37,021 nt of DNA from a virus. Each line of letters opens with the position of its first letter. Position 1 is the first letter of the stretch. The stretch is taken from the IMG/VR virus record IMGVR_UViG_3300025889_000366, positions 1-37,021 of that record; one strand, 5' to 3'. The notes below the pieces were generated by a model that was not told where the DNA came from, did no database searches, and saw nothing but the letters and a program-made list of their open reading frames with translations. The position numbers and the translations under genes are program-made. This document shows positions 2,996-13,707 of this stretch, one piece after another.

Positions 2996-3202
2996 CTAGC
3001 CCTTCCTTCTCCTACCCGCACGCCCCCTCTTGAAGTTCAACACCCGCCGTTCCTCCAATGCCCTCAGCTCCTCCGCAAAGCTCGGATCCGTCAAGCCACG
3101 CCTCCGCAGCCACGCCCGATACTTCTCGTTGAAATACTCCTGGCTCATACCCGGATCCGCAGGACCCACGTCGGCCACCCTCTGCACAGTCATCTTGCCC
3201 AT
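2996..3202 (-). CDS. small basic protein, first gene of methyltransferase operon
   Basis: 68 residues, starting MGKMTVQRVADVG, with a basic tail (RRVLNFKRGRAGRRRKG) suggesting nucleic-acid binding. The segment MSQEYFNEKYRAWLRRRG is a probable amphipathic helix pair. No Shine-Dalgarno is seen. The ATG lies only 11 bases after the -10-like element of the promoter at 3214-3242, so the message may have a very short leader. ATG 3193 is an alternative start. It ends just before the methyltransferase start, implying one operon. Confidence 0.6.
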   Translation of the reverse strand: MGKMTVQRVADVGPADPGMSQEYFNEKYRAWLRRRGLTDPSFAEELRALEERRVLNFKRGRAGRRRKG

Positions 3203-3213
3203 AGCAGGACGCA

Positions 3214-3253
3214 GTGTTGCACCATGTGCGCTATGTTGTCAAGTGTTGCAACA
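3214..3253 (-). promoter_or_regulatory. leftward promoter with overlapping TGTTGCAACA operator
   Basis: On the minus strand TTGACA (3242-3237) is followed after exactly 17 bases by CAACACTG (from 3219). The perfect palindrome TGTTGCAACA lies at 3244-3253, and a one-mismatch copy TGTTGCACCA lies at 3215-3224 over the -10 position. The same TTGACA-N17-CAACACTG arrangement occurs in front of the HTH gene at 13707. CAACAC is a poor sigma-70 -10 element, so the promoter may need an activator or another sigma factor. Confidence 0.6.
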
Positions 3254-3254
3254 G

Positions 3255-3330
3255 TTGGAAATGGGGTTGGTGGGGGAATGGGGGGCTAAATCTAAACCCA
3301 CCCCCCCCGTGGGGGTCCCCCTACCCCCGT
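3255..3330. other. G-tract/C-tract pair, possible hairpin or quadruplex
   Basis: The top strand carries runs of 4, 5 and 6 G between 3264 and 3287. About 11 bases later it carries C-runs of 8, 5 and 5 between 3299 and 3328, including the perfect inverted repeat GGGGGT-CCCCCT-ACCCCC (3311-3328). The bottom strand of the second half has four G-runs within 35 bases. It lies just downstream of the TerS candidate and may end its transcript, but there is no clean T-tract. Confidence 0.4.
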
Positions 3331-3335
3331 GGTCC

Positions 3336-3385
3336 TTTAACGATAGTAATGTTCCACGTGGAACAATGCCAGGTTAACGCTAACG
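3336..3385. repeat. TAACG motifs flanking the parS-like site
   Basis: TTTAACGATA (3336-3345) lies 4 bases before the parS-like palindrome. GTTAACGCTAACG (3373-3385) lies 7 bases after it. The same core recurs as a denser cluster at 5939-6010. These may be protein-binding sites that work together with the palindrome; no binding protein can be named. Confidence 0.4.
3350..3365. promoter_or_regulatory. parS: parS-like centromere site
   Basis: TGTTCCACGTGGAACA is a perfect 16-bp palindrome. It matches the bacterial chromosomal parS form (TGTTnCACGTGnAACA) bound by ParB, and specifically the CC/GG variant known from pseudomonads. It sits in an intergenic gap between the TerS candidate and the methyltransferase operon, flanked on both sides by TAACG motifs. 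No parA or parB gene is visible in the window, so any binding protein would have to come from the host. One copy was seen. Confidence 0.75.
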
Positions 3386-3422
3386 AACGGCGTTTTTGTG
3401 CACAGTAAAGGTTACATTCAAT

Positions 3423-5938: not shown

Positions 5939-6010
5939 CGTTAACCTGTAGCCTGCCCATACCCCTATCCTTTAACGTTACCGTTTAACGTTAAACCTTT
6001 ATCGTTAACG
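5939..6010. repeat. cluster of TAACGTTA-type palindromes
   Basis: Within 72 bases lie CGTTAAC (5939-5945), TAACGTTA (5973-5980), the perfect 14-bp palindrome GTTTAACGTTAAAC (5983-5996) and CGTTAACG (6003-6010). The core also flanks the parS-like site. The cluster begins the large non-coding gap. An initiator-binding or regulatory role is possible. Confidence 0.5.
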
Positions 6011-12758: not shown

Positions 12759-13525
12759 CCGACCACCTCCGCAGTCTCAATCTTGGGCAGCTTGGAGAGG
12801 ATCAGGTCAGGCTTGCTGATGACCTTGCTGGCCACATCAGTCGGGAGGTCGCGGAAGTTCTGGCCTTCCTTGATCTTGCCAGTGCTGACGAGGAACGCAT
12901 TGACCTCTTCCTCGCGAGCCTCGAACAGAGCCTCGAGCTTACCGATGACAGCAGAATCGTCGGCCTTCGTCACAGTGACCCTGGGCGCTTCAGCACCGAA
13001 GTCCTGAGCTTCCTCCGGGGTGTAGATGCCCATGACCACCTCGGGAGCGATCATGCGGATCGCCTTTGAGATCAGTCGGGCGCGGAGCATGGCGGCAGGA
13101 TCCTTCTGCCAACCAGAGCCCGGCTTCCCGGGATACAGGCCGGCAGCCTTGGCGTCGTCGAGCGAATAGCTGATGTCGATCTCGTTGCCATCATACTTCC
13201 ATGTAGCTGAAGCGATCTTGGCATCGAACTGCTTCCAGATGACCTTGCCTCCGCGGGCACGGTAGCCGGCGAGCATAGCGTCGGCCCGCATCGTAGGCTG
13301 GCCGTTGACGAGGTGATAGGTGCGCTTGATGTCGAACGGGCTCTTCTTCTCAGCCAGGCATTGCATGGCGATGATGTGACCCTGTTCGACCTTGGTGCAT
13401 CCGAACATCCCAGAGGACGAGATCCACTCTCCTAGCTGGGCGATGGCGCTGATGGGTTCAGCGATACGGTCGTAGACTTCATTGGCGGCCGAAGGGGCAG
13501 CCACTGCGAGTTGCATGTTGTTCAT
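12755..13525 (-). CDS. RecT-like single-strand annealing protein
   Basis: 256 residues. The central block has KRTYHLVNGQPTMRADAMLA, then GGKVIWKQFDAKIASATWKY. It is followed by W-QKDPAAMLRARLISKAIRM and APEVVMGIYTPEEAQDFG. This is the signature of a common phage RecT-type family, where W-x-K-xPxxML and 'GiYTpEE' recur. It anneals complementary single strands exposed by the exonuclease, giving phage recombination and end repair. ATG 13525 overlaps the stop of the HTH gene (ATGA), so the two are coupled. A C-terminal acidic helix (LEALFEAREEEVNAFLV) may contact partners. Confidence 0.8.
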   Translation of the reverse strand: MNNMQLAVAAPSAANEVYDRIAEPISAIAQLGEWISSSGMFGCTKVEQGHIIAMQCLAEKKSPFDIKRTYHLVNGQPTMRADAMLAGYRARGGKVIWKQFDAKIASATWKYDGNEIDISYSLDDAKAAGLYPGKPGSGWQKDPAAMLRARLISKAIRMIAPEVVMGIYTPEEAQDFGAEAPRVTVTKADDSAVIGKLEALFEAREEEVNAFLVSTGKIKEGQNFRDLPTDVASKVISKPDLILSKLPKIETAEVVG

Positions 13526-13707
13526 TTGTGTTTCGGTGCCGATTTGGTTGCCTGAGTCATCAAGGACTCAAGGACTTCACTGCGGACTCGGATGGTGCGT
13601 GCAGTGGCCTTGATGGCCGGCACTTTACCACTTCGTATCCACCGTCGCACCGTCTCGGCGTGAACCCCGAGTGCATCCGCCACTTGGCGGGGAGACAGCA
13701 GCTTCAT
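13522..13707 (-). CDS. excisionase/MerR-type helix-turn-helix protein
   Basis: 61 residues. KLLSPRQVADALGVHAETVR, then RWIRSGKVPAIKAT, is the classic 'sp.qvA..lgvh..TVrrWirsGklpaik' winged-helix DNA-binding domain of the Xis/BldC/MerR group, with a short basic tail. As the first gene after a palindromic operator it is a good candidate for the repressor or activator of the leftward early operon and of the methyltransferase operon, which carries the same operator. The ATG lies 8 bases after the -10-like element, so the transcript may be nearly leaderless. No integrase is present, so a role as excisionase is unlikely. Confidence 0.85.
   Translation of the reverse strand: MKLLSPRQVADALGVHAETVRRWIRSGKVPAIKATARTIRVRSEVLESLMTQATKSAPKHK

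Follow-up and report, generated by a model that had tools for sequence, protein, structure and literature searches.

A putative chromosomal-type parS site in a tailed phage that lacks ParB

Between the gene of a small terminase subunit-like (terS-like) protein and that of a 68-aa basic protein, the tailed phage represented by IMG/VR record IMGVR_UViG_3300025889_000366 carries a perfect 16-bp palindrome, TGTTCCACGTGGAACA (Table 1). The whole record, 37,021 bp long, was the stretch of DNA analyzed and is referred to here as the window. Its viral nature is evident from the presence of terminase, portal, and capsid genes, which are accompanied by those of a primase-helicase, a second helicase, an exonuclease, a RecT-like protein, and a Holliday-junction resolvase. 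The phage genome is nearly complete, since L185, 99.98% identical to it, bridges both ends of the record with ca. 180 bp. Searches for ParB_N (PF02195) gave no match in this record or in those of the near relatives L123 and L125, in agreement with an earlier note on this DNA, in which no parB had been seen. A scan of most phage ORFs against PHROGs or Pfam gave no ParA, ParB, or integrase, and a search for tyrosine-type integrases in the record was also negative. No repressor or replication-initiator gene was recognized in the phage, and profile scans found no family match for the 68-aa protein. Adjoining recT, a 61-aa excisionase/MerR-like DNA-binding protein is encoded (positions 13522 to 13707), in a phage without tyrosine integrase. 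Separately, the record of a distant relative (L166; G012:C1:26406-26642) contained a ParB_N domain within an open frame of 1692 codons, which is perhaps a polyvalent protein.

Table 1. Features of the putative parS locus and of the related box cluster in the window
Feature	Position	Strand	Basis or remark
68-aa basic protein	2996..3202	-	ORF; restricted to the clade having the parS locus
Intergenic region (220 bp) holding parS, with the terS-like gene on one side and the 68-aa gene on the other	3203..3422		ORF map; aligned with relatives
Conserved G-run / C-run block GGGGGGCTAAATCTAAACCCACCCCCCCCG	3280..3309		Overlaps an invariant 28-column stretch in relatives
TTAACG box, one side of parS	3337..3342		Hexamer count; partly conserved in relatives
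parS-type perfect 16-bp palindrome TGTTCCACGTGGAACA	3350..3365		Exact match; invariant in 4 related lineages
TTAACG + TAACG boxes, other side of parS	3374..3385		Hexamer count; partly conserved in relatives
Small terminase subunit-like (terS-like) protein, 166 aa	3423..3923	-	phrog_4102, E 6.6e-7
Six-box TTAACG/CGTTAA cluster, non-coding	5939..6010		Near the cumulative GC-skew minimum

The earlier note had described a complete 16-bp palindrome, intergenic and flanked by TAACG motifs, and each part of this description stood up to reexamination. The palindrome agrees at 16 of 16 positions with the chromosomal-type parS pattern TGTTYCACGTGRAACA; it exceeds in length every other perfect palindrome of the record and has no second match there, even when three mismatches are allowed (0.13 expected from dinucleotide shuffles). 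The number of occurrences expected by chance, first put at 9 x 10^-6 under equal base use, becomes 7.4e-6 at the actual composition of the record. The designation "pseudomonad-type" is accurate for the sequence, the parS of P. putida being the identical 16-mer (PMC7022226), although a pseudomonad is unlikely to be the host. As for the flanking motifs, their pattern is stronger than had been stated. TTAACG (or CGTTAA) occurs eight times in 37 kb, twice around the palindrome (at 3337 and 3374) and six times at 5939 to 6010, and it is the only hexamer in the whole record with at least six copies confined to two clusters. The six-box cluster is a possible origin or regulator array. Judging from this arrangement, a phage protein may act at the boxes next to parS, which would be either compatible with ParB binding or an alternative to it, and the 61-aa excisionase/MerR-like protein is a candidate TTAACG binder.

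We gathered relatives through TerL and the 68-aa protein, without using the palindrome as a query, and the sample is therefore unbiased toward it. The palindrome was invariant (16/16) and in the same place in four lineages (the window with L185; L192; L193 to L195; and L196). Outside it, identity was 78 to 86% across the whole gap and 54 to 75% in pairwise comparisons upstream, and 57% of the alignment columns within 60 bp of the palindrome were invariant. In L125/L192 the neighboring terS allele shares just 45% identity with the window allele, with the palindrome unchanged. In L123/L196 there is a second exact copy within terS (L123:1300-1315), apparently a recent gain; the other lineages have the unrelated GGACATGTCGTGTCC at that position, an in-frame replacement. 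A fifth lineage with the locus, L197, has no palindrome, which was either lost or never acquired, and one remaining TTAACG box, and the distant relatives (76% identity in TerL) have neither the palindrome nor the 68-aa gene, so that the site is dispensable in the wider family. Thus, the search for conservation in relatives that the earlier note proposed found the site kept in four of the five lineages having the locus, but absent from more distant ones.

We consider with moderate confidence that the likely hosts belong to Verrucomicrobiota. The best named TerL matches were Akkermansia phages (33%). Relatives located in MAGs were divided between Verrucomicrobiota and Chloroflexota (two each); three of these four lie on contigs of 3 to 5 kb, which may be misbinned, and the sole long contig (181 kb, 41% identity) is from Verrucomicrobia. 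The exact 16-mer was present in 38 of 79 Verrucomicrobiota genomes, with one to three copies each (reversed-pattern controls gave 0), and the phage site therefore corresponds to the parS of the host phylum that we infer. In the two Verrucomicrobiota genomes checked for its context, the 16-mer was inside mnmG, while in a third one (G228) it fell in an ORF without Pfam match; the MAG of L331 has TGTTCCACGTGGAACG in an ORF reading as mnmG. A canonical ParB was encoded by all 10 Verrucomicrobiota genomes tested (above the TIGR00180 cut-off), and a motif search over ca. 8 kb revealed no parAB beside the chromosomal parS. In a Verrucomicrobiota MAG we also observed a phage-like contig (L333:1500) with TGTTTCACGTGAAACA where an ORF begins; judged by its sequence, this ORF encodes a putative large terminase.

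A scan of IMG/VR retrieved at least 120 contigs with the 16-mer, and likewise at least 120 with TGTTTCACGTGAAACA, versus 10 and 1 contigs for two control palindromes. Given that a random 15-mer had 41 matches, ca. 22 Gb were searched and ca. 5 matches would be expected per 16-bp palindrome; the excess of the 16-mer in viral contigs is at least 12-fold. A few related phages as the source of this enrichment could be ruled out, as ca. 71 lineages at the protein level remain among the 120 16-mer contigs listed. Among the matches listed, parS-type sites were intergenic in 118 of 239 cases versus 11 of 52 for the controls (p 2e-4). Two or more parS-type sites appeared in 14 of the 120 and 25 of the 119 listed stretches, while none of the 52 control stretches (436 kb) had any. 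We found ParB_N in 1 of the 100 carrier records examined (and in 4 of 45 carriers of the other parS form, 3 of them above the cut-off), and 19 of 48 long carrier records matched one single terminase profile. These values make host chromosome contamination unlikely as the main source of the viral sites, and a few of the multi-site contigs could be host DNA. Integrases were found in 1 of 48 parS records and 3 of 30 controls, numbers too small for a link to a non-integrating lifestyle. Terminase and head genes seemed to be favored near the viral sites, an apparent trend due in part to related phages.

In one capsid-gene clade, the 16-mer lies within a variable stem-loop close to where a gene starts, with CCTGAC and GACAGG motifs conserved on either side; its central CG varies while the stem stays, or the stem is swapped for others. 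Since the 16-mer of this clade belongs to a variable hairpin, fewer of the viral copies can be called parS, and some of them may not be parS at all. In L377 to L433, the order directly after the capsid gene was CCTGAC, a variable stem-loop, GAC...GACAGGAG, and then the next gene, with a stem that was often TGTTCCA..TGGAACA and CG, TG, or CA at its center; this looks like an RNA element of those phages. In another contig (L050:9781-9818), the 16-mer is part of a longer palindrome that continues for 11 more pairs to either side; this is probably a hairpin or terminator rather than a plain parS.

The reading that we favor, with a probability of about 0.6, is that the palindrome of the window is a genuine chromosomal-type parS, maintained by selection in a phage devoid of ParB, and that it would recruit the ParB of the host to form a partition complex. 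The evidence in hand is that the likely host phylum has the identical parS, that relatives retain the site, that neither ParB_N nor a tyrosine integrase was found in the phage, and that viruses carry the 16-mer in excess. Recruitment of host ParB had already been proposed in the earlier note, and it receives good indirect support from the invariance of the site, from its match to the parS of a likely host phylum in which canonical ParB is encoded, and from the excess of the 16-mer in viral contigs nearly always devoid of ParB_N, whereas the flanking TTAACG boxes leave room for a phage regulator. In that case, palindrome and boxes would form the operator of a regulator or replication initiator of the phage, involved in late gene expression or replication, and the identity with parS would be convergent. 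The boxes stand on both sides of the palindrome in direct orientation, ca. 37 bp apart and with the palindrome midway, the hexamer recurs in the six-box cluster as no other does, and boxes are retained in relatives, one of them even in the palindrome-less L197. However, the palindrome is absent from the 5939 to 6010 cluster, its second copy in L123 is within a coding sequence and lacks a neighboring TTAACG box, and it is the exact parS of the likely host phylum, shared by ca. 71 unrelated viral lineages among the matches listed. We regard an operator as distinctly improbable. A somewhat better, if still low, chance is given to recruitment of host ParB that serves either to control genes or to provide a decoy. 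In the first version, ParB spreading from a site that adjoins terS would keep the terminase region silent, either at the beginning of infection or during a carrier state, as suggested by the repression that P. aeruginosa ParB exerts on promoters beside parS3/parS4 when parS is functional (PMC5521831), but no sigma-70-type promoter was recognized between 3000 and 4100, although the promoters of the host may differ. In the second, many phage copies would pull ParB away from the host origin. The parS sites of SGI1, which stabilize SGI1 and destabilize its helper plasmid (PMC10954446), count in favor of this reading as a whole, although a single site would make a modest decoy unless copy number were high.

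Much less credible is a packaging (pac) or terminase recognition site bound by TerS. The palindrome does lie beside terS, with the second copy of L123 within this gene, and pac sites are often located within terS, but the identical palindrome accompanies the strongly diverged TerS of L125 and is missing from relatives with an equally diverged TerS and a 76%-identical TerL. Nearly negligible is the chance that we are dealing with an RNA hairpin (a processing site or terminator) or with a fortuitous palindrome. In the capsid-gene clade described above, a conserved leader does have this palindrome, or others in its place, as its stem. For the window we rejected the hairpin because the predicted fold is no more stable than those of shuffled sequences (z -0.63 and -0.79); moreover, an extended stem and a T-run are both absent at the palindrome, and the central CG, the would-be loop, is invariant too. 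A chance origin has an expectation of 7e-6.

Returning to recruitment of host ParB into a partition complex, the loading of ParB as a CTP clamp, its spreading, and the action of ParA and SMC are established ParABS biology. Host ParB, already in the cell before infection, would load at the phage parS, and it probably binds this palindrome. The CTP-bound clamps would then spread from parS over the adjoining phage DNA, and the resulting complex would be served by host ParA and, probably, SMC. The likeliest payoff would be the placement of unintegrated phage DNA on the nucleoid and its division among daughter cells, while infection proceeds slowly or in a carrier state resembling that of a plasmid. 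That partition or positioning of the phage genome is indeed the benefit is a more tentative proposal, to which we give somewhat less than even odds.

The closest precedent is SGI1, whose parS mimics hijack the parABS system of IncC plasmids; there, binding of the foreign ParB to the site has been proven, as has the stabilization of SGI1 (PMC10954446). As in SGI1, we have a mobile element that lacks ParB but bears a parS belonging to another replicon, whose ParABS it would use, the pairing of phage and host being deduced here. In SGI1 the parS system works together with Sci, a small protein encoded by the element, while the 68-aa neighbor in the phage has no known Sci-like action. A further difference is that the phage copy is of the chromosomal type, carried by a tailed phage and known here from sequence alone. 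With the chromosomal parS of Verrucomicrobiota and P. putida (PMC7022226) it shares all 16 bp, but the phage has a single copy beside terS, whereas the chromosomal one is near oriC. P1, N15, and the mycobacteriophage RedRock (PMC7157519) likewise have a centromere-like site on a phage without tyrosine integrase, but supply ParA and ParB themselves and use unrelated parS repeats of their own; in the PF02195 searches, the phage studied here and its relatives L123 and L125 gave no such ParB. In the literature covered, published papers with few from subscription journals, we found no phage use of a chromosomal parS, the nearest cases being SGI1 and the self-sufficient parABS systems of phages. The hijack of parS by a mobile element was therefore known from SGI1; what would be new is that the copied site is a chromosomal parS and the carrier a tailed phage.

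Segregation in bacteria relies mainly on ParABS-SMC, and the existence of a viral centromere in the absence of a viral ParB would, if true, mean that phages exploit this system in trans. This would offer a handle on the persistence of non-integrating phages and explain the excess of exact parS sites in virus collections. At a broader level, concerning the occurrence of GTTYCACGTGRAAC across phage genomes, the idea that many unrelated ParB-less phages carry the chromosomal parS of their hosts, with host ParB, ParA, and SMC organizing, positioning, or partitioning the phage DNA, is put forward provisionally, at odds just short of even. If it is correct, viral exploitation of the chromosome segregation machinery would be widespread and largely overlooked, and the present phage would be one example of it.
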